From NCBI RefSeq assembly GCF_028330765.1, contig NZ_JAQMTY010000170.1:1-32416 (forward strand): a DNA stretch of 32,416 nt, written 5' to 3'. The translations under genes and the position numbers were made by a program. Origin of the DNA: Spirulina subsalsa CS-330. GTDB taxonomy: Bacteria; Cyanobacteriota; Cyanobacteriia; Cyanobacteriales; Spirulinaceae. Below the pieces are notes generated by a model. That model was not told the origin of the DNA and did no database searches. It saw only the letters and a list, made by a program, of their open reading frames with translations. Positions 1,960 to 27,179 of the stretch are shown here, one piece after another (within the stretch, counting starts at the first letter, position 1; every line of letters begins with the position of its first letter).

Positions 1960-2658
1960 ATGCCCGAAACACCGTGGTTCACGAACCTTAACGACACACC
2001 TACCTATATGGTTGCCGACGCAGCCCGCTATATTCGTGTGCCCACCGTCACTCTCAGCACATGGCTCAACGGACGTACCTACACCACCAAAAACGGCAAA
2101 CGTCAAAGCCCGCCCCTCATCCAACGGCCCAACCCCAAAACCCCCCTGCTCAGTTTCAATAACCTCCTTGAAGGTCATGTCTTGCGCGTTATTCGAGAAA
2201 CCCACGGCATACCACTCTCCAAAGTGCGGGGTGCGATCGACTACCTCAGCCAAAAATTCGACACACCCCACCCCCTCATTCACAACCAATTCAAAACCGA
2301 CGGCGTAGACCTCTTCATGGAACGCGCTGATCTCCTGATTAACGTGTCGCGGGCCGGACAACTCGCCATCCGTGAAGTCATCCAAGACCTGCTCAAGCGC
2401 ATTGAGTGGGAAGACAATATTGCCGTCCGACTCTATCCTTTCATCAGCCCCATCGACCCCGCCGACAAAATCATCAGCATTGACCCCCGCTACTCTTTTG
2501 GTAAGCCCATCATCACCGCCACTGGAGTCCCCACCGATGTCCTCGCTGAGTTCTACAACGCAGGTGACTCCATCGAAGACCTAGCCGAAGATTACGACTG
2601 CACCCCCACTCAAGTCAGCGCCGCCATCCGGTTTGAGTCTTCGCGTCAAGCGGCATGA
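1960..2658 (+). CDS. DUF433-type antitoxin with N-terminal helix-turn-helix
   Basis: The 232-residue protein starts with a MerR-like DNA-binding segment (YMVADAARYIRVPTVTLSTW, near residue 13). It ends with a DUF433 domain (about residues 170-228) containing IDPRYSFGKPIITATGVP and the helix-turn-helix DLAEDYDCTPTQVSAAIRFE. DUF433 proteins are the antitoxin half of toxin-antitoxin pairs with PIN-like toxins. Its stop codon overlaps the next gene by 4 nt (ATGA), so the two are translationally coupled. An in-frame TAA 21 nt upstream of the ATG fixes the start. The extended form, with a full N-terminal DNA-binding half, fits an autorepressing antitoxin. Confidence 0.8.
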   Translation: MPETPWFTNLNDTPTYMVADAARYIRVPTVTLSTWLNGRTYTTKNGKRQSPPLIQRPNPKTPLLSFNNLLEGHVLRVIRETHGIPLSKVRGAIDYLSQKFDTPHPLIHNQFKTDGVDLFMERADLLINVSRAGQLAIREVIQDLLKRIEWEDNIAVRLYPFISPIDPADKIISIDPRYSFGKPIITATGVPTDVLAEFYNAGDSIEDLAEDYDCTPTQVSAAIRFESSRQAA

Positions 2659-3083
2659 TCCACCCGCAACCCCCCTACACCTACTTTCTTGACCACGCAC
2701 TCCCCAAGAGTGTCGCAACTACGCTCCGCAGCTTAGGATATGCCGTTGAACGACTCCAAGACCACTTTCCTGTCAATGCCCAAGATGTAGATTGGCTTCC
2801 CGTCGTTAGTCAACGCGGCTGGATCATCTTGACCAAGGATAAAAACATTGGCAAGCGCATCATTGAACTGGGAGCCGTAGCCAACTCAAACGCCCGTCTT
2901 TTTACACTCGTATCGGGCAATATTAGCTCTGCTGAGACCGCCCAAGTCTTTGCCAACGTGATCGGAAAATGTGAAGAAATCGTTCAGCAAGAAGCTGCTC
3001 CCTTTATCTTCAAAATTTATAAAGATGGCTCAGTAACACGGTGGCGCGACGCTAACACCATGCAGCAAAACAGATTGCCTTAG
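2655..3083 (+). CDS. PIN-like domain toxin (VapC45/DUF5615-like)
   Basis: This 142-residue protein reads as a compact PIN-like nuclease. It has an early acidic residue in FLDHALP, the conserved spacing LRSLGYAVERLQDHF, a central NAQDVDWLPVVSQRGWIILTKD-like core (quoted here as motif pieces DVDWLP and ILTKDKNIG), and then a divergent tail. Proteins of this type cleave RNA and are held in check by DUF433 or related antitoxins. It overlaps the upstream antitoxin gene by 4 nt. The target RNA cannot be inferred. I am confident of the toxin-antitoxin pairing but less so of the exact Pfam subfamily. Confidence 0.75.
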   Translation: MIHPQPPYTYFLDHALPKSVATTLRSLGYAVERLQDHFPVNAQDVDWLPVVSQRGWIILTKDKNIGKRIIELGAVANSNARLFTLVSGNISSAETAQVFANVIGKCEEIVQQEAAPFIFKIYKDGSVTRWRDANTMQQNRLP

Positions 3084-7840: not shown

Positions 7841-8746
7841 TCACTTACGTTGATCAATCCTTTGATTTTGCTCAGTCAACCATTGCCAAACCTGCTCAAA
7901 AAGATCGGGGTGGTCGGCATCAAACCAGTGGATTTCAGGATAGGCCCGGAACCATGTTCGCTGACGTTTGGCAAATTGGCGGGTATGGAGACTGATGCGA
8001 TCTCCTAATTCCGTCGGGGCGAACTCTCCTCGCAACAGGGCACAGACTTCGGCATAGCCTAGGGTGTTTAAGAGGGGTAACTCTTCGCCATAGCGTTGAC
8101 AGAGGGTTTCGACTTCTGCCACGAGTCCTTGCTCGATCATGGCTGTGGTGCGGGTTTGGATACGGTGATCGAGGCGATCGCAATCTAAACCAATCTGTAC
8201 GATCGGATAGGTGGGCGGATTTTCCCCCTGTTGTTGCGAGATTGGCAACCCGGTCACATAAAACACTTCGAGGGCGCGGATTGTGCGGGTGGCATCGTTG
8301 GGGTGAATTTTCTGGGCGGCATCGGAGTCAAGGTGTTGTAAAAGGCTGTAACGATAGGGTTGATCGAAGGATTGGAATTGCGATCGCAGCTCTGGATGGG
8401 GCGGCACACGGGGAATTTTGAGACCCTTCGTAATTGCCTTGATATACAGTCCCGTCCCCCCCACCAGGAGCGGCGGCGTTGCTGCGGTATTAATTACGGT
8501 CTGGGCTTGGTGTTGATACTCTGCCAGGGTCAAAACGTCCGTTGGTTCGCAGACATCAATGAGATAATGGGGCACTTGGGCCAATTCCCTCGCCGTCGGC
8601 TTGGCCGTGCCAATCGTAAACTCGCGGTACACCTGCCGCGAGTCTGCACTGATAATCACCGTCTGCAACCGTTGCGCGAGGCGTAACGCTAAACTCGATT
8701 TGCCGCTGGCCGTAGGCCCACAAACCACAATCAATCCTGAAACCAT
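7841..8746 (-). CDS. miaA: tRNA dimethylallyltransferase MiaA
   Basis: MiaA transfers a dimethylallyl group to N6 of A37 in tRNAs that read UNN codons. The 301-residue product has the P-loop GPTASGKSS (10-18), ISADSRQVY, the GTAKPT segment, YLIDVCEPTD, the LLVGGTGLYIKAI block and HPNDATRTIRALEV. All of these are conserved MiaA motifs. I start at the ATG at 8746 because it begins right before the P-loop as in the family. An upstream in-frame extension of 33 residues lacks family similarity. The gene is followed by an inverted repeat and a CRP-like site. Confidence 0.95.
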   Translation of the reverse strand: MVSGLIVVCGPTASGKSSLALRLAQRLQTVIISADSRQVYREFTIGTAKPTARELAQVPHYLIDVCEPTDVLTLAEYQHQAQTVINTAATPPLLVGGTGLYIKAITKGLKIPRVPPHPELRSQFQSFDQPYRYSLLQHLDSDAAQKIHPNDATRTIRALEVFYVTGLPISQQQGENPPTYPIVQIGLDCDRLDHRIQTRTTAMIEQGLVAEVETLCQRYGEELPLLNTLGYAEVCALLRGEFAPTELGDRISLHTRQFAKRQRTWFRAYPEIHWFDADHPDLFEQVWQWLTEQNQRIDQRK

Positions 8747-8969
8747 GCTGAACTCAATTGCGTGAAATGACGAATTCTCTTTAACCTGCCAAAAATGGCA
8801 TTCATTCCACCATAAACCCGGTATGCCGATGCAGTCGCCCCTCATCGTGGGCTAATCAATCCGCTTTGATTGGGAGAGGCGCGATAATCATGATTTAGAC
8901 TCGTTATATTGTGCAATCAAGGGTCTTTGAGTCTGAAACATTCTTGCCGTGCAGCCACTTGTCACACCT

Positions 8970-10169
8970 ATGCCGAATTTAATCGCCTACCTACAAACCC
9001 CTGCGGCCATTCGCGCCCAAGCAGAGCAGATGTTTCAACTGGCGCAACAGGATCAACTGAAGCATTTTCGTTACCATCCTGAGGCGATCGCTACCGTCAT
9101 CACCTATGTTTTGGCGAATCTCCGCAGTAACTATCCGGATTTGGATGTACCGTTTCATAGTCGGTGGCGGCATTTTGAGGTGGGAGGGTGCGATCGCCTC
9201 GCCCAACTTCAGACCCTGATCCCTCATCTCTCCCCCCGCGATCGCGTCAAAACGCTCTATGAATTAGCGATCGCCAGTGTCCTGCTCGATGCCGGTGCAG
9301 GGCCGAGTTGGCAGTATCGCGAAGCCGAAACCGGCCAAACCTGGCAACGCTCCGAAGGATTAGCGATCGCCAGTTTTCGGATGTTCATCGCAGGCGGCTT
9401 CAGTAGCGATCCAGAGCATCCCTATCAAGCCGATGCCGTGGGCTTACAGGCGATCACCCCGGAGCATCTCGCCCCCCATTTTCAAGTCACAGAGAATAAT
9501 GGTTTAGTGGGGATACAGGGGCGATCGCAACTCCTGCGCACCCTCGGCCACATCGTCGCCACCACCCCGGATGTATTCGGCAGCGAAACCCCCCGCCTCG
9601 GCAATCTCGTGGATTATCTCGTCCCCGTCGGAACCCAAACCCTCCCCGCCCCGAAAATTTTTGCCGCGATCATCACCTACTTCGGTCGCATTTGGCCGGG
9701 GCGCTTGGTCTTGGATGGGGTGAATTTAGGGGATGTGTGGTCACATTCCCAAGTGGGGTATGTGCCATTTCATAAATTGTCCCAATGGTTGACCTATTCA
9801 TTAATTGAGCCATTGGCCCATTTGGGGGTGAGGGTGACGAATTTAGATCAATTAACCGGGTTAGCAGAATACCGGAATGGCGGTCTCTGTCTAGATTTGG
9901 GCTTGCTGAGTTTAAAAGATCCAGGCCAAGCCGCTCACACCCATCGCCCCGATTCAGAATTGATTGTGGAATGGCGATCGCTCACCCTCGCCTGCCTAGA
10001 TCGGATCGCGGCCGGCATTCGCACCCAGTTGAACCAATCCGCCCAAGAACTCCCCCTCGTCAAAATCTTGCAAGGCGGCACTTGGGCCGCCGGGCGCAAA
10101 ATTGCCGCCGAATTGCGCATCGATGGCCGCCCGCCTCTACTAATCGAAAGTGACGGCACAGTCTTTTGA
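8970..10169 (+). CDS. DUF1688 family protein (URC4/Urg3-like)
   Basis: The 399-residue protein matches the DUF1688 family through blocks such as VLLDAGAGPSWQYREAETG, SEGLAIASFRMFIAGGFSS, LGNLVDYLVP and the C-terminal LLIESDGTVF. The family includes fungal URC4/Urg3, which is needed for the URC route of uracil catabolism. Its biochemical role is not settled. No other pyrimidine catabolism gene is visible here. I use the ATG at 8970, since the N-terminus then starts MPNLIAYLQTPAAIR. A GTG at 8949 is an alternative. The 3' end is abutted directly by a truncated DrmD-like fragment on the other strand. Confidence 0.85.
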   Translation: MPNLIAYLQTPAAIRAQAEQMFQLAQQDQLKHFRYHPEAIATVITYVLANLRSNYPDLDVPFHSRWRHFEVGGCDRLAQLQTLIPHLSPRDRVKTLYELAIASVLLDAGAGPSWQYREAETGQTWQRSEGLAIASFRMFIAGGFSSDPEHPYQADAVGLQAITPEHLAPHFQVTENNGLVGIQGRSQLLRTLGHIVATTPDVFGSETPRLGNLVDYLVPVGTQTLPAPKIFAAIITYFGRIWPGRLVLDGVNLGDVWSHSQVGYVPFHKLSQWLTYSLIEPLAHLGVRVTNLDQLTGLAEYRNGGLCLDLGLLSLKDPGQAAHTHRPDSELIVEWRSLTLACLDRIAAGIRTQLNQSAQELPLVKILQGGTWAAGRKIAAELRIDGRPPLLIESDGTVF

Positions 10170-20711: not shown

Positions 20712-20960
20712 ATGCAAAAAGAGGACTCCCGCGCAGATATTGAAGTCGAGCCGATTGAAGACTGTCACCGTGAGTTTTTGCGGGGGTTGCGGGTGCGGGC
20801 GAATTTGGTTGTGCCGGTGTTGATTCCGGGTGATCTGTGGGGGCTATTAATTGCTCATGATCAGGCCCCCCGTTCTTGGCAGGCGGATGATATTGCCACC
20901 CTGCAAGCCAGTGCCCGCACCATTGCCAATACTGCCGCCATTCGTCAGATGCACCGATGA
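20712..20960 (+). pseudogene. C-terminal remnant of a GAF domain protein
   Basis: The 82-codon frame reads EDCHREFLRGLRVRANLVVP, VLIPGDLWGLLIAHDQAPR and WQADDIATLQASARTIA. This is the second half of a phytochrome-like GAF domain. The first half, and any signalling output domain, is missing. The frame starts 5 nt after the MITE end, with an in-frame stop just before the ATG, so the MITE or an associated deletion probably removed the 5' part. Its stop overlaps the next ATG by 4 nt. It could still be translated as a short leader, but as a domain it is incomplete. Confidence 0.7.
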
Positions 20961-22522
20961 TCTTTCGAGAGCGGTTGCACGCTTGGGCCTGCCATACGCC
21001 CGATGCGATCGCAATCCACGCAGCCCAAGGGACGCGCCTCACGTTCCAGCAATGGGAGCAGCAGAGCGAGCAATGGGGTCAACGCTTCGCCCAGGTGGGG
21101 ATCATGCCCGGCGATCGCGTCGTGCTCATGGTTCCCTTGGGTCTGCCGCTCTATCTACTGCTCGCGGCCCTGTGGCAGCGGGGGGCGGTGGTGGTGGTGC
21201 TCAATCCGGCGGTGGGGGAGGGGGCGATCGCTGCCGCTTGCGAGGCCCTGCAACCCCGCGCCTGGTTGGCCAGTGGGTTGGGGTTGATGGTGTTGGGGCT
21301 GCGATCGCCTACGTTGCGCCGAATTCCGGTGAAAATTCCCGTCGGCGGTTGGGTGGGGCAACTCTGGCAGAGACGGCGATCGCCCCGCCCGCTCGTCGTC
21401 AATCCCACCCCCAATCCCGACGCGGTGGCCCTAATTTCCCTCACCAGTGGCAGCACCGGCCCGCCCAAACTGATCCACCGCACCCATCACCAACTCCACG
21501 CCCAAGGGGAAGCCCTCGCCCCCATTCTCCACAGTCAACCGGGCGATCGCGAATTGGCGATCCTGCCCCTCTTTGGTCTTGTCCATCTTGCCGCCGGGGG
21601 GACGCTGGTTTTGCCGCCCTTTCCGGTGCGATCGCTGGCTAAACTGCCCGGCCGCGCTCTGCTTCGGGTGATCCACCAGCAACAGATCAGCCGCCTGATC
21701 GCCTCCCCGACGGTATTCACGACCCTAATCAAGGCCGCACGGCGCGATCGCACCACTCTCCCCCACCTCCGTCAACTCTTCATCGGCGGTGCGCCCGTCT
21801 CGTTCCGTTGTTTGGATCATCTCCAGGCGATCGCCCCCCACGCCCAGATCACCATCGTCTACGGCGCAACGGAAGTCGAACCCATCGCCACCCAACCCTA
21901 CGCAGACATCACCGCAGGCGATTATCACCAAACCCATAGCGGCCACGGCCTCCTCGTCGGTCATCCCGTCCCCGGTCTCACCGTAGCGATCCTGAACCCC
22001 CACGCCCCCAACCCCAGCACCCCCGCCGCCTTCACCGCCCACACCCTCCCCCCCGGCCAACCCGGCGAAATCCTTGTCACGGCTCCCCACGTCATCCCCC
22101 GGCCAGAGCCGCAACAGTTCACCCTCGCGGGCCAGCGGTGGCATCGGACGGGGGATTTGGGGTATTGCGATCGCGCTGGGCGGTTGTGGTTATTGGGGCG
22201 GCGGGTCGGGTTAATTGAGGATGAGCGGGGCCGGTTGTATCCTTGGGCAGTGGAGGCGGTGGTCAATGAACATCCGGCGGTGGTGCGATCGGCGGTGGTG
22301 GGATGGCAGGGGCAACGGTGGCTCTATGTGCAGTGCGATCGCACCTATCGACGCGGCCCCCGGTGGCACAATCTCCGCGCTACCCTGGCCGAGCAATTAA
22401 CCTGGGCGCAGTGCGATCGGATCATCCCCATCCCCCGCCTCCCCGTCGAACCCCGCCACCACGCCAAAATCGACTATCGCCGCCTCTATCACACCCTCCA
22501 ACACTCACACCCCTCCCGCTAA
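20957..22522 (+). CDS. AMP-forming acyl-CoA ligase family protein (OleC-like)
   Basis: This 521-residue enzyme belongs to the ANL superfamily, which activates a carboxylic acid with ATP and usually loads it on CoA. The ATP-binding P-loop is LISLTSGSTGPPK (about residues 160-172). YGATEVEPIA is the A5 motif, WHRTGDLGYCDRAGRLWLLG contains the conserved TGD, and the C-terminal hinge and catalytic Lys lie near PRHHAKIDYRRL. Overall it resembles OleC-like fatty-acid ligases more than LuxE or benzoate ligases. The substrate is not readable. Its ATG overlaps the stop of the GAF remnant. Confidence 0.85.
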   Translation: MIFRERLHAWACHTPDAIAIHAAQGTRLTFQQWEQQSEQWGQRFAQVGIMPGDRVVLMVPLGLPLYLLLAALWQRGAVVVVLNPAVGEGAIAAACEALQPRAWLASGLGLMVLGLRSPTLRRIPVKIPVGGWVGQLWQRRRSPRPLVVNPTPNPDAVALISLTSGSTGPPKLIHRTHHQLHAQGEALAPILHSQPGDRELAILPLFGLVHLAAGGTLVLPPFPVRSLAKLPGRALLRVIHQQQISRLIASPTVFTTLIKAARRDRTTLPHLRQLFIGGAPVSFRCLDHLQAIAPHAQITIVYGATEVEPIATQPYADITAGDYHQTHSGHGLLVGHPVPGLTVAILNPHAPNPSTPAAFTAHTLPPGQPGEILVTAPHVIPRPEPQQFTLAGQRWHRTGDLGYCDRAGRLWLLGRRVGLIEDERGRLYPWAVEAVVNEHPAVVRSAVVGWQGQRWLYVQCDRTYRRGPRWHNLRATLAEQLTWAQCDRIIPIPRLPVEPRHHAKIDYRRLYHTLQHSHPSR

Positions 22523-22980
22523 CTCGCCAATTTCGCGGCTGAGTAGTGGAATGACACCTTTTAAAAGGTGAATACTGAAGCCATCACAAATGCTGTATTT
22601 GACCCAGCAAATCAACTTTTCAAGTGCGATCCACCGACTGGGAAATATAGGATGCAATGCTTTTTTAGCTTATTACCCAACAGATCTAAGTAGATCAGGG
22701 TGAATTTCGTGAACTATGTAACGAATTGTAATGAAAGCTGGATTTCAGTGATGGTCAGGATTCTAGCCTGATTGGCTCAGATTTTTTGGTGTTGCAAATC
22801 CTGCCTGAGCTACTTATTTTAGCGATGAGGAATTTGAGGAATAGTGCGATCGCCTTTAATAGATAGATTGTTGATGCGATCGCCTAAAAATCACAAATCA
22901 TAGGGATGGCGATCGCAATACGTTTTATGATATATTTTAAAATAGCTAGATAAAAAAACTCTTGGAATGGAGAACTGTCA
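22523..22980. other. AT-rich intergenic region with three HIP1 octamers
   Basis: These 458 nt hold no supported gene. A perfect 16-bp palindrome CACCTTTTAAAAGGTG lies at 22555-22570, shortly after the ligase stop, and might act as a terminator hairpin though it has no T tract. Three GCGATCGC octamers lie at 22846-22853, 22876-22883 and 22909-22916. The last stretch before the cofilin-like gene (about 22920-22960) is very AT-rich and is the likely promoter. Confidence 0.5.
22969..22974 (+). promoter_or_regulatory. Ribosome binding site of the cofilin-like gene
   Basis: GGAGAA lies 6 nt upstream of the ATG at 22981. A clear bacterial ribosome site shows the eukaryote-like gene is set up for translation in this host. 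Confidence 0.75.
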
Positions 22981-23400
22981 ATGGCTGATTTAACTATTAG
23001 TGATAAAAGCATAGAATTATTCAACAGGGTAAAGATCGAAAAATATTATTCTTATGTTTTATTCGGATTGAGTCCTGATAATTCTACACTTGAATTTCGA
23101 GGCTCAGGTGATAGAAGCTATGACTTTGATTCCATTGCATCCGAACTTCCCAAGGCGGATGTTGCGTTTATTATTTATGATTTTGAATATGAAACGGATG
23201 AAAAGCCTCCTCGCAAAACTTCAAAACTAATTCTCATTTCTTGGTGTCCAGTATCAACTCCAGTGAGACAAAAGTTTGCTTTGGCTAGCGGAGAAAATCA
23301 ACTAAAAATGTCCTTCACGGGAATACAAAAAAGTTTTAAGTTAACTGAGTATGAAGAAGTTAGTTTTTCATCTTTAAGAAAGGCACTGCTTACTGCTTAA
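22981..23400 (+). CDS. ADF/cofilin homologue (ADF-H domain protein)
   Basis: The 139-residue product is a single ADF-H domain. Family blocks occur in order: LFNRVKIEKYYSYVLFGLS, LPKADVAFIIYDFEYE (residues 56-71), SKLILISWCPVSTPVRQKFA (81-100) and EYEEVSFSSLRKAL. ADF/cofilin binds and severs actin filaments. Residues matching key actin contacts of yeast cofilin are kept: Arg96 and Lys98 after TPV, and Lys82. The Arg-Arg pair of the long helix is here Lys109-Met110, and the regulatory serine at the N-terminus is not obvious. GC content is about 35% by hand count (145 of 420), with no HIP1 site inside, while neighbours are far more GC-rich. No actin or profilin is nearby. The identification is strong, and the function in a bacterium is unknown. 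Confidence 0.9.
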   Translation: MADLTISDKSIELFNRVKIEKYYSYVLFGLSPDNSTLEFRGSGDRSYDFDSIASELPKADVAFIIYDFEYETDEKPPRKTSKLILISWCPVSTPVRQKFALASGENQLKMSFTGIQKSFKLTEYEEVSFSSLRKALLTA

Positions 23401-23494
23401 ATTATAACGGAACTTCCACATCTGCTCCAAGAGGATGTCTGAAAAGAGTCTGAATGTAATGATTGTTGCATTCGTCTGAACGAAAAAGTAGCGA

Positions 23495-23704
23495 TTACAG
23501 ACTATAAGAATCATTAACCCGTGGATTTTCACGAACCCATGCGGGGTCTGGCTTTTTGATGTCTGGCACTGGGATTCCTCGATCCTGGAACCCACTTTCT
23601 GCAAATTCCGTACTACATTCTCGCCGCAACATCGCCCCCGCCGCCTTCGGGTTATAACAATTCGCCAAGATAAACTTCTCCGCCACCGACTCCGGGTTCA
23701 TCAT
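23495..23704 (-). CDS. Small hypothetical protein, possibly a frameshifted remnant
   Basis: On the minus strand a frame starting at Met-Met (23704) reads NPESVAEKFILANCYNPKAA, then GAMLRRECSTEFAESGFQDR and IKKPDPAWVRENP. I do not recognise a named family. Upstream, another frame on the same strand reads KKRKAKKPSPGQTSLLF, which looks like a basic protein tail. It would join the present frame if one base changed near TTTGCTATGGG, so this may be the end of a larger frameshifted gene. It lies between the cofilin-like gene and the Uma2 gene. Confidence 0.35.
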   Translation of the reverse strand: MMNPESVAEKFILANCYNPKAAGAMLRRECSTEFAESGFQDRGIPVPDIKKPDPAWVRENPRVNDSYSL

Positions 23705-23859
23705 TTCCCGCTGATCCCATAGCAAACAGCAAACTCGTCTGCCCTGGTGAGGGTTTCTTGGCTTTGCGTTTTTTCTGAGCGATCGTGTTCGGTTCAGTCC
23801 CCAACAGTGGATTATTGCCAGAATGCCTACTATTAAGACAGTGTGAACCGACAGGCGCA

Positions 23860-24468
23860 ATGGTACAAACTCCCGTATCCCCTCAACCCCTTTTCCTCGA
23901 ATTGCCCCCAGACCTCGCCCTACAGGTCACGCCGGAACAGTTCGCCGCTCTAGCCGTGACCAATCGTGATCTCAGACTCGAACGCACTGCAACCGGAGCA
24001 TTAATCGTGAACCCACCCACTGGCGGCATTTCTGGCAAACGGAATTTAAGTATCAGTATGCAATTAGGGAATTGGTCGGAAGCGAACGAGCAACGAGGTG
24101 AAGCGTTTGACTCATCCACGGGGTTTGAATTGCCCAACGGTGCGAATCGTTCCCCCGATGCCTCGTGGGTGCGGCGCGATCGCTGGGATGCCCTCACGCG
24201 GGAACAGCAGGAGGGGTTTGTTCCCCTCTGTCCGGATTTTGTTGTGGAGTTGCGATCGCGCAGCGACAGTTTAAACACCACTCGCGCCAAACTCCAAGAA
24301 TATCTCGACAACGGCACACAATTAGGCTGGCTCATCGACCCCCAAAACCAACGGGTAGAAATTTATCGCCCCGGTTGCGAGGTTGAAACCCTAGACCGCC
24401 CCGATACGCTCTCCGGTGAACCAATCCTGCCCGGATTTATCTTAAAATTGCAACGAATTTGGGCGTAA
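23860..24468 (+). CDS. Uma2 family endonuclease (DUF820)
   Basis: The 202-residue protein has the PD-(D/E)XK-type Uma2 pattern. It includes FAALAVTNRDLRLERT at the start, GKRNLSISMQLGNW, TGFELPNGANRSPDASWVRR with the catalytic Asp, FVPLCPDFVVELRSRSDSL with Glu, and YLDNGTQLGWLIDPQNQRVE. These genes are highly multiplied in cyanobacteria and their biological role is not established. I use ATG at 23860. A longer frame from GTG at 23785 adds residues unlike the family. The gene is monocistronic, followed by palindromic repeats. Confidence 0.9.
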   Translation: MVQTPVSPQPLFLELPPDLALQVTPEQFAALAVTNRDLRLERTATGALIVNPPTGGISGKRNLSISMQLGNWSEANEQRGEAFDSSTGFELPNGANRSPDASWVRRDRWDALTREQQEGFVPLCPDFVVELRSRSDSLNTTRAKLQEYLDNGTQLGWLIDPQNQRVEIYRPGCEVETLDRPDTLSGEPILPGFILKLQRIWA

Positions 24469-24489
24469 GGGGCTGGTGGATGTCAATGC

Positions 24490-24645
24490 AGCGCGGTTTC
24501 CCCATTCCTAGAGGTATGCACACCAGAGGAGACGTTCCCTCGTGTCATGGCTTTGCCGTGACATGCGCTTTGAGCGGCTCCGCCGCCTGGGGAGGAGGCA
24601 GAGCCTCCCATGAGCATTACTGGGCTCTGCCAAGTAACGAGATTT
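24490..24645. repeat. Cluster of palindromic repeats
   Basis: About 150 nt contain several stem-loops: TGTCATGGC-TTT-GCCGTGACA, GCGG-CTCCGC, GGAGGCAGAGCCTCC, and a perfect GGCAGAGCC (24597-24605) with GGCTCTGCC (24623-24631). The look is that of repetitive intergenic palindromes spread through many cyanobacterial genomes. No gene is supported in 24469-24834, which otherwise holds the leader of purH. Confidence 0.6.
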
Positions 24646-24834
24646 TCATCAGTTTGAAAACGATGTGGCAACAGGGCGATTAAATCATCCGGCGGATCGA
24701 GCATTGCAGCGCCGCAGGTAGAGCGATGAAGATTGAACCTGCCCGGCGATCGCCTTCAAAGTTTCAATTTTTTAAGGTTTGGGCGGTGGATCTGGTGGGA
24801 TAATAGCGGCGTTGTTCATCGCCGCCTGTGAATT

Positions 24835-26364
24835 GTGAGTAAATTAGCCCTGCTGAGTGTCAGCGATAAAACCGGAATTGTCGAACTTGCTCAAGCCCTG
24901 GTGCAAGACTTTGGCTTTGATTTGATCAGTAGTGGCGGCACGGCGAAAACTCTCCAAGCAGCGGGATTGCCCGTCACGAAAGTGAGCGACTACACCGGAT
25001 CACCGGAAATCCTGGGGGGCCGGGTGAAGACCCTCCATCCCCGCATCCATGGCGGGATTTTGGCGCGGCGGGATCTGCCGGAACATTTAGCGGAATTAGA
25101 AGCGAATCAGATCCGCCCGCTGGATTTGGTGGTGGTGAATCTGTACCCCTTTGAACAGACGATCGCAAACCCCGATGTCACCGTCGAGGATGCGATCGAA
25201 AATATTGATATTGGTGGGCCCACCCTCCTGCGGGCAGCGGCGAAAAATCACGCCCATTTAACCGTGTTGTGTCGCCCGGAACGGTACGGGGCCTATCTGG
25301 AAGAATTGCGAACGAACGGAGAACCGAGCGCGACGTTTCGGCGCGATCGCGCCCTCGAAGGCTTCCAGATGACCGCGAGTTACGATCGCGCCATCGCCGC
25401 TTACTTCGCCCAACTCACCGACAGCCCCGCCCCCTTCACCCTCACCGCCACTCCCCACCAAACCCTACGCTACGGCGAAAACCCCCACCAGCCCGCCACT
25501 TGGTACAAAACCGACGAGAGCGGCTGGAGTAGCGCCACCCAATTGCAGGGCAAAGAACTGAGCTATAACAATTTGGTCGATCTCGAAGCAGCGCGGCGGA
25601 TCATCATTGAATTTGGCGACAGTGGCGACCCGGCGGCGGCGGTGTTGAAACATACCAACCCCTGCGGCGCGGCCATGGGGGCGACCCTCGTCGAAGCCTA
25701 CGAGCGGGCGTTTAATGCCGATTCGGTGTCGGCATTTGGGGGGATTGTGGCGTTGAATCGGCCCATTGATGCCCCGACGGCGGCGGCCCTCTCGAAAACC
25801 TTTTTAGAATGTATCGTTGCGCCGGGCTGTGAGCCGGAAGCGGCGGCGATTCTCAAGAAAAAATCGAAGTTGCGGGTGTTGCTCTTGCCGGACTTATTCA
25901 CAGGGCCGAAGGAAACCGTGAAGGCGATCGCGGGCGGTCTCCTCGTCCAAGCGGCGGATGATGCCACCGATGACCCAGGGCAATGGCAAGTGGTGACCCA
26001 AAAGCAACCCACCGACGCAGAACGGGCAGAAATGCAATTCGCCTGGAAGTTGGCGAAACACGTTAAGTCGAATGCGATCGTGATTACCCGCGATCGCACC
26101 ACCATCGGCGTGGGCGCAGGGCAAATGAATCGGGTCGGCGCGGCTCAGATTGCCCTCGCTCAAGCTGGGGACGCGGCAAAAGGAGCCTGTCTCGCCAGTG
26201 ATGGGTTTTTCCCCTTTGATGATTCCGTGCGCACCGCCGCCGCAGCGGGGATCACGACCATCATTCAACCCGGCGGTTCGATTCGTGACAACGACTCGAT
26301 CGCCGCTGCCGATGAGTTAGGAATCGTGATGATTTGTACCGGAATGCGCCATTTCTTGCATTAA
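24835..26364 (+). CDS. purH: Bifunctional AICAR formyltransferase / IMP cyclohydrolase PurH
   Basis: PurH carries out the last two steps of purine synthesis, formylating AICAR and closing the ring to IMP. The 509-residue protein starts with the MGS-like cyclohydrolase domain (LLSVSDKTGIVELAQAL, LISSGGTAKTL, LGGRVKTLHPRIHGG). The formyltransferase domain follows (LRYGENPHQPATWY, LKHTNPCGAAMG, SNAIVI, GAGQMNRV and DGFFPFDD). The start is GTG, with no strong ribosome site. plsY follows after 35 nt in the same direction, so the two may be cotranscribed. Its product IMP is the substrate of GuaB3, encoded elsewhere in this window. Confidence 0.97.
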   Translation: MSKLALLSVSDKTGIVELAQALVQDFGFDLISSGGTAKTLQAAGLPVTKVSDYTGSPEILGGRVKTLHPRIHGGILARRDLPEHLAELEANQIRPLDLVVVNLYPFEQTIANPDVTVEDAIENIDIGGPTLLRAAAKNHAHLTVLCRPERYGAYLEELRTNGEPSATFRRDRALEGFQMTASYDRAIAAYFAQLTDSPAPFTLTATPHQTLRYGENPHQPATWYKTDESGWSSATQLQGKELSYNNLVDLEAARRIIIEFGDSGDPAAAVLKHTNPCGAAMGATLVEAYERAFNADSVSAFGGIVALNRPIDAPTAAALSKTFLECIVAPGCEPEAAAILKKKSKLRVLLLPDLFTGPKETVKAIAGGLLVQAADDATDDPGQWQVVTQKQPTDAERAEMQFAWKLAKHVKSNAIVITRDRTTIGVGAGQMNRVGAAQIALAQAGDAAKGACLASDGFFPFDDSVRTAAAAGITTIIQPGGSIRDNDSIAAADELGIVMICTGMRHFLH

Positions 26365-26399
26365 TGGGGGATGAATGAATTAATTGCTGCGGAGAGGTT

Positions 26400-27062
26400 A
26401 TGACTGGGTTAATTATTGTGGGGATTGCGATCGCCTCCTATCTGCTGGGGTCATTCCCCACGGGGTATCTTGTGACCAAATGGCTCACGGGCCTGGACAT
26501 TCGCGACCAAGGCTCCGGCTCCACCGGGGCCACCAACGTCCTCCGCACCGTCGGCAAATGGGCCGCCGCCACTGTCCTCCTCACCGATGCCCTCAAAGGT
26601 GCGATCGCCCTCGCCCTCGTCTATAGCCTCGCCTATATCCCCGCGATCGCGCCGTACATCCCCACCGCCGGGCTACCCTGGTTCGCCACCCTCGCCGGAC
26701 TCCTTGCCCTCGTGGGCCATAGTCGTTCCGTTTGGCTGCAATTCAAAGGCGGCAAATCCGTCGCCACCGGCATCGGTATCCTGCTGGTGATGAGTCCCGT
26801 TGTCGCCCTCGGCACGATCGCCGTCTTCGCCCTCACCCTCGCCGTCAGTCGGATCGTCTCTTTGGGATCGATCTTGAGTGCGATCGCCGTCACGCTCTTA
26901 ATGCTGCTGCTCCACGAACCCCTCGCCTACTGCCTCTTTGGCCTCCTCGCCGGCAGTTACGTCATTGTCCGCCACCGCACCAACCTCCAACGCATCTTTA
27001 ACGGCACAGAACCCAAAATCGGGCAAAAACTCCAACCCCAACCCGAATCCACCGCCTCATGA
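26400..27062 (+). CDS. plsY: Glycerol-3-phosphate acyltransferase PlsY
   Basis: PlsY moves the acyl group from acyl-phosphate to glycerol-3-phosphate, the first step of phospholipid synthesis, in the cytoplasmic membrane. The 220-residue protein has five hydrophobic segments and three conserved loops: LLGSFPTGYLV, GSGSTGATNVLRTVGK and GHSRSVWLQFKGGKSVATGI. GGAGAGG lies just upstream of the ATG. The C-terminal tail (NPNPPP-like region as QPQPESTAS) is short and variable. The gene directly follows purH, a pairing without obvious pathway logic. Confidence 0.95.
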   Translation: MTGLIIVGIAIASYLLGSFPTGYLVTKWLTGLDIRDQGSGSTGATNVLRTVGKWAAATVLLTDALKGAIALALVYSLAYIPAIAPYIPTAGLPWFATLAGLLALVGHSRSVWLQFKGGKSVATGIGILLVMSPVVALGTIAVFALTLAVSRIVSLGSILSAIAVTLLMLLLHEPLAYCLFGLLAGSYVIVRHRTNLQRIFNGTEPKIGQKLQPQPESTAS

Positions 27063-27179
27063 AACCGTGAGAACACGGATTAGTCGCGCCAATATGGCAC
27101 AATTCTCGGCCACTGGGGAAACATCGACCTAGAATAAAGACACTTAACGCTCGCTCGACATCCATGACGACGGCTCATC

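Follow-up and report, generated by a model that had tools for sequence, protein, structure and literature searches.

The window, a 32,416-nt stretch of the genome of Spirulina subsalsa CS-330, encodes a true member of the ADF/cofilin family. Our overall reading, to which we assign a probability of about 0.72, is that this gene was recently transferred from a Spirulina-like relative, that it has a candidate actin partner in Spirulina sp. CCY15215, and that it is an orphan in the window organism. The gene and its likely translation signal are as follows:

22981..23400, forward strand: ADF/cofilin gene encoding P0001 (139 aa), with an intact open reading frame (PF00241; yeast cofilin 1cfy)
22969..22972, forward strand: GGAG, a likely ribosome-binding site read from the sequence, 8 bases before the ATG

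The assignment of P0001 to the family is virtually certain. The ADF-H profile (PF00241) matches it with E 8e-25 and 87.4 bits (cut-off 22.4), residues 12-134 of P0001 covering positions 3-124 of the 125 in the profile, and a Pfam scan finds one ADF-H stretch in the 139 aa. ADF/cofilins contain a single ADF-H domain of ~130-150 aa, as opposed to twinfilin and drebrin. The best PDB relative found by phmmer is yeast cofilin 1cfy (E 3e-21; P0001 residues 4-133 aligned with yeast 6-133), and the same search returns 38 different PDB sequences with E no higher than 1. When three bacterial sequences are combined into a profile, 30 different PDB sequences match it with E ≤0.001; they bear ADF/cofilin-type names (cofilin, ADF, actophorin, destrin, actin severing protein), apart from a single glia maturation factor and a gene product that has no name. 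The sequence-only reading of this DNA had claimed that the whole product aligns with ADF/cofilin and had proposed a PF00241 search as a check; both the profile and the yeast cofilin match bear it out. Compared with eukaryotic ADF/cofilins (1cfy, and actophorin 7sog, which we take to be Acanthamoeba-type), P0001 has the same length and matches over the whole domain, but it is only 28-30% identical to the four eukaryotic stretches aligned and, unlike them, is bacterially encoded and an orphan in its genome. A search of NCBIfam assigned none of P0001, P0004 and the protein of the Streptomyces plasmid L036 (see below) to a family.

The open reading frame begins with ATG and runs through 139 codons with its frame intact and without an intron. 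A GGAG lies at equal spacing upstream of the CCY15215 cofilin (contig L004), and the intact frame and likely ribosome site described earlier are both in place. Between 22492 and 23800, a search with the promoter consensus picked out 4 promoter-like sites, compared with 2.9 expected, none of them immediately upstream of the cofilin gene.

P0001 carries W88, R96 and K98, as previously noted, and R96 and K98 fall in the columns of yeast R96 and K98 in two alignments. Yeast K82 corresponds to K in both the phmmer and MAFFT alignments, yeast R80 stands opposite K (MAFFT) or T (phmmer) depending on gap placement, and the aligned part of yeast cofilin stops at 133, short of the F-site residues R135 and R138. 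The helix residues K105, D106, R109 and R110 of yeast cofilin are actin-binding; in P0001 they are E, N, K and M, one of the four keeping its charge, and in our view these positions vary among family members and do not define the family. PMC3541276 places yeast R80 and K82 in the F-site and describes R96 and K98 as kinked-helix residues near G-actin.

The genome that contains the window (G000) is 4.70 Mb in 304 contigs, is 98.64% complete with a contamination estimate of 0.08, and holds one cofilin copy. The three nearest larger genes of the window that were scanned are AMP-binding, Uma2 and purH. The sequences flanking the cofilin region match a same-genus genome, G002, on the left (20733-22491) at 93.5% DNA identity and on the right (24704-27100) at 94.9%. 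In G002 the two flanks lie ~35 kb apart and are inverted relative to each other, leaving the following interval:

22492..24703, no strand assigned: interval without a collinear match in G002, containing the cofilin gene and a Uma2-family gene

The Uma2-family gene of this interval is present elsewhere in G002. The low GC of the cofilin gene relative to its contig could be taken as a sign of eukaryotic DNA contaminating the assembly, but we consider the probability of this to be negligible. The open reading frame has no intron, the contamination estimate for the genome is low, and a homologue 82% identical to P0001 is found in the separate assembly of Spirulina sp. CCY15215 (G008), where it has the same 92 bp upstream and shares contig L004 with DUF2254 and GmrSD genes. 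Contamination is rejected because the flanks match G002 and this homologue sits in the CCY15215 assembly, and the same observations support the cyanobacterial location that had been claimed for the gene. A viral origin was also rejected: viral_contigs scans gave 0 confirmed relatives from 6 (single sequence) and 390 (alignment) pattern matches. Phage records gave no match, and PHROGs none for P0001 or for the CCY15215 actin (P0005). Elsewhere in the window, 1960-3083 on the forward strand contains two adjoining, overlapping small open reading frames of 232 and 142 aa, which presumably resemble a DUF433 antitoxin-type/DUF5615-type pair.

Comparison of the two cyanobacterial loci indicates that the cofilin gene was very probably transferred laterally, and recently, between genera. 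Two features of the window are involved:

22889..23431, forward strand: block common to Spirulina sp. CCY15215, found by blastn and also in a whole-genome search
22837..22916, forward strand: GCGATCGC-rich repeat just upstream of the cofilin gene

The common block is 87.3% identical over 544 aligned columns and consists of the gene with 92 bp of upstream and 31 bp of downstream sequence. Blastn of L004 against the window finds no collinear similarity beyond it, the other matches being short repeat copies and matches of chance length. Within the gene, codon positions 1, 2 and 3 differ at 14, 14 and 13 of 137 codons, a third-position identity of 90.5%. For purH of the same two genomes, the one comparison gene on which the transfer inference rests, the identities at the three positions are 81%, 86% and 36.5% (507 codons; amino-acid identity 75%). 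Recent transfer is concluded because of this difference at third positions and because the collinear identity ends close to the gene on both sides.

The donor was likely a lower-GC, CCY15215-like (Spirulina-like) lineage. The GC content of the cofilin gene is 34.5%, within a window of 53.1% GC, and GC3 is 0.25 for the window cofilin and 0.67 for the window purH, the values for CCY15215 being 0.22 for the cofilin and 0.33 for purH. The GCGATCGC-rich repeat, in which GCGATCGC is presumably HIP1-type, has a single copy in the 32.4-kb window, not counting one 19-base match, and at least 7 partial matches of at least 24 bases in the 7.9-kb L004 and more across the CCY15215 genome. Low GC and GC3, together with the dispersal of the repeat in CCY15215, point to transfer into the window lineage.

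Over 137 codons, the two cofilin genes differ by 41 nucleotides and 25 amino acids, with dN 0.095 and dS 0.153 (NG86). In simulations under neutrality, amino-acid changes are as few as those seen with P 0.28, so that their count does not fall below expectation, and stops are absent with P 0.34, which is unsurprising. The replacements are of a more conservative kind than neutrality predicts (mean BLOSUM62 0.56 vs -0.35, P 0.002), which weakly suggests that the protein is of consequence to at least one of the lineages.

Cofilins are rare in cyanobacteria. PF00241 matches two of the 14 genomes of the same family group (the window genome and CCY15215), the same two among 389 relatives, and only the window genome itself among 386 cyanobacteria drawn evenly across the phylum; these draws overlap and are not independent. 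A protein query with P0001 matches 2 of 60 relatives. PF00241 matches none of the 14 control genomes, and no cofilin match is found in the same-genus genomes G001-G003, two of which are only 81-82% complete. The closest relative found outside cyanobacteria is encoded in a Methylococcales MAG (L005 1023-1436; PF00241 66.9 bits, 38-40% identity), on a contig that also encodes a peptidase M20 and has further open reading frames of bacterial appearance. In a tree of ten sequences (four eukaryotic stretches and six bacterial), the two cyanobacterial cofilins and the Methylococcales protein form one clade with support 0.992, apart from the Streptomyces proteins, and they have YETDE.PPRK and TGIQK in common. 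The tree is too small for the eukaryotic donor to be named.

Three cofilin-family genes (H1-H3) are located on Streptomyces plasmids:

L036, 7989-8393, forward strand: cofilin-family protein (PF00241, 71 bits)
L037, 6001-6366: cofilin-family protein
L038, 6001-6390: cofilin-family protein

These are likewise bacterial cofilin-family proteins, 44-74% identical to one another, but they occupy a separate branch, are only 23-27% identical to P0001 in the alignment behind the tree (24-28% in the search that found them), and in two of the three cases lack the equivalents of both R96 and K98. No actin is found among the annotated neighbours of L036, the only annotated record of the three. A Streptomyces cofilin homologue was noted in 2009 as a probable case of horizontal gene transfer (PMC2651865). 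The description of ADF-H domains as characteristic of eukaryotes therefore needs qualification, as the Streptomyces and Methylococcales members show that the domain is not wholly restricted to them. The earlier reading knew of no described cyanobacterial cofilin, and none was found in our search of titles and abstract openings, subscription journals lying mostly outside its scope.

In CCY15215, the cofilin gene is accompanied by a gene for actin:

L004, 5187-6299, forward strand: eukaryote-type actin (P0005), 371 aa, 2.4 kb downstream of the cofilin gene on the same strand

P0005 matches PF00022 with E 3.5e-135 and its best PDB actin with E 2.3e-183 (74% identity over 356 columns). The D-loop and position 137 matter in actin; P0005 is without 10 D-loop residues and has Thr at position 137, and the CCY15215 filament may therefore not resemble F-actin. 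Compared with the full-length actin of another cyanobacterium, G086, it is identical at 18 of 19 nucleotide-site positions compared, and at 9 of the 13 actin positions that PMC3541276 gives as near cofilin. Between the cofilin and actin genes lie open reading frames of 220 aa (with sub-threshold Pfam matches only) and 75 aa, and L004 also carries GmrSD_N and HEPN genes upstream and the DUF2254 gene at its far end. The best reading of this locus, on the evidence of one 7.9-kb contig, is that of a laterally acquired actin-cofilin pair. Either co-adaptation or decay could account for the altered helix residues of the cofilin and for the missing D-loop of its neighbor.

The genome-wide search for actin and profilin that had been proposed as a check finds neither in the window genome. 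No eukaryote-type actin is detected there with the CCY15215 actin as query (E 1e-10) or with PF00022, which gives one 33-bit match, to an MreB-like open reading frame adjoining an MreC-like one (both named from sequence reading); PF00022 also matches 6 of the 14 control genomes, including E. coli and B. subtilis. A tblastn search of the window for an actin remnant gave nothing better than E 1.4. Since no eukaryote-type actin is found in the window organism, its cofilin is best regarded as an orphan. Profilin (PF00235) was matched in one of the eight genomes searched, G178, and not in the window genome or CCY15215, and it was rejected on these grounds as a partner of the cofilin and actin.

The CCY15215 actin query (E 1e-10) matches 5 of 100 relatives (G008, G086, G098, G006 and G009) and two genomes of the 386-genome phylum draw (G178 and G185). 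The loci outside CCY15215 are:

G086, L014:9026-10153, forward strand: full-length actin, on a 121 kb contig
G098, L015:9224-10393, reverse strand: full-length actin, on a 5.1 Mb contig, overlapping the end of a transposase-like open reading frame (sequence reading)
G006, L016:9423-9947, reverse strand: N-terminal actin fragment, overlapping a transposase-like open reading frame at 8457-9455 (sequence reading)
G009, L017:9424-10221, reverse strand: short actin of 265 aa
G185, L035:7331-8128, reverse strand: short actin of 265 aa
G178, L034:5452-7264, forward strand: actin followed by profilin, a Microcystis-type pair

The full-length actins of G086 and G098, whose hosts belong to other cyanobacterial families, are 88-90% identical to a eukaryotic actin. 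Both genomes seem to be without cofilin, according to the PF00241 search of 389 relatives, in which their inclusion is deduced from list order; the same applies to the inclusion of G178 and G185 in the 386-genome PF00241 draw. The two short actins are 59% identical to each other, lack approximately the same stretches (the D-loop region and ~182-262) and are altered at nucleotide-site residues. Of the NCBIfam models, syringactin fits them best, with a score below its cut-off; the literature search gave no match for this name. Their retention in two families suggests that they are perhaps functional. In the Methylococcales MAG, no P0005-like actin is found even at E 10, in a search that had no positive control there and a MAG whose completeness is not given. 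Actins thus seem to occur without cofilin (G086, G098), and no eukaryote-type actin is found with the cofilins of the window organism and Methylococcales, and the pair is therefore not obligate.

For CCY15215, we somewhat favor the view, drawn from the gene neighborhood and the conserved residues, that the cofilin works on the nearby actin. The most likely mechanism there is the standard one: the cofilin would loosen, sever or depolymerize the bacterial actin polymer, its kinked helix (R96/K98 region) docking in the actin cleft formed by subdomains 1 and 3 and its basic F-loop (RK.SK, which includes K82) touching the adjacent filament subunit. For the window organism, we lean to a similar degree toward the cofilin having no function yet; the orphan would be either a transient passenger or a protein that acts on something else. 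The earlier suggestions of probable expression and of a possible role in regulating a bacterial actin-like filament find no support in this genome, as no eukaryote-type actin or profilin is found in it and the changes are not below neutral; the candidate partner is in CCY15215.

We give even odds to the window copy being a real cofilin by descent that is idle in its present host and will drift until lost. The lack of a detected eukaryote-type actin or profilin in a 98.6% complete genome, the change count compatible with neutrality, the recent arrival with a GC content that has not yet adapted, and the location within a rearranged interval are all in line with this, but the reading frame and GGAG are intact, amino-acid replacements are more conservative than neutrality predicts, and the protein still scores 87 bits to PF00241. 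This account overlaps with our best explanation for the window copy and has no bearing on the Spirulina copy. It is unlikely that the cofilins of the window organism and Methylococcales act on an MreB-like actin homologue or have a new, non-actin role. The window genome does contain the MreB-like reading frame beside the MreC-like one, no eukaryote-type actin accompanies the cofilin in either genome, and the shared clade and motifs unite the cyanobacterial and Methylococcales proteins; against this, the contacts of cofilin are known for eukaryote-type actin, and the Methylococcales actin search is limited as described above. Conservation of the equivalents of yeast R96, K98 and K82 would also suit a protein directed against actin in a grazing or host eukaryote, but this appears very improbable, given that the N-terminus (MADLTISDKSIELF) is like those of cytosolic cofilins and, on sequence reading, contains no hydrophobic stretch resembling a signal peptide, that the scanned neighbors are not secretion genes, and that the actin gene near the Spirulina cofilin is the bacterium's own.

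Our preferred reading, a transferred cofilin with an actin partner in CCY15215, can be compared with that of Microcystis, in which the actin ActM and the profilin PfnM are described (PMC3254629). In both cases, a cyanobacterium gained a eukaryote-type actin together with an actin-binding protein; the partner is the profilin PfnM in Microcystis and the cofilin in CCY15215. By this comparison, a eukaryote-type actin in the same genome is found in CCY15215 and not in the window genome, and profilin in neither. In PMC3254629, PfnM is called the only known prokaryotic homologue of a eukaryotic actin-binding protein, despite the Streptomyces cofilin noted in 2009, neither "cofilin" nor "ADF" occurs, and bacterial actin is argued to change readily since most of its binding proteins are missing.

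A locus encoding actin and cofilin would provide a natural minimal system for filament severing and turnover by two proteins, would open to study how an actin could polymerize with its D-loop cut, and bears on the spread of eukaryotic cytoskeletal genes among bacteria. Tentatively, and with somewhat less confidence than we place in the pairing itself, some Spirulina-type cyanobacteria may run a two-part cytoskeleton of eukaryotic descent, in which a D-loop-poor, Q137-less actin forms a polymer that a dedicated cofilin turns over, profilin playing no part, and the cofilin may also move alone between genera as a small cassette. The finding suggests that some bacteria took over the actin filament together with its regulator.
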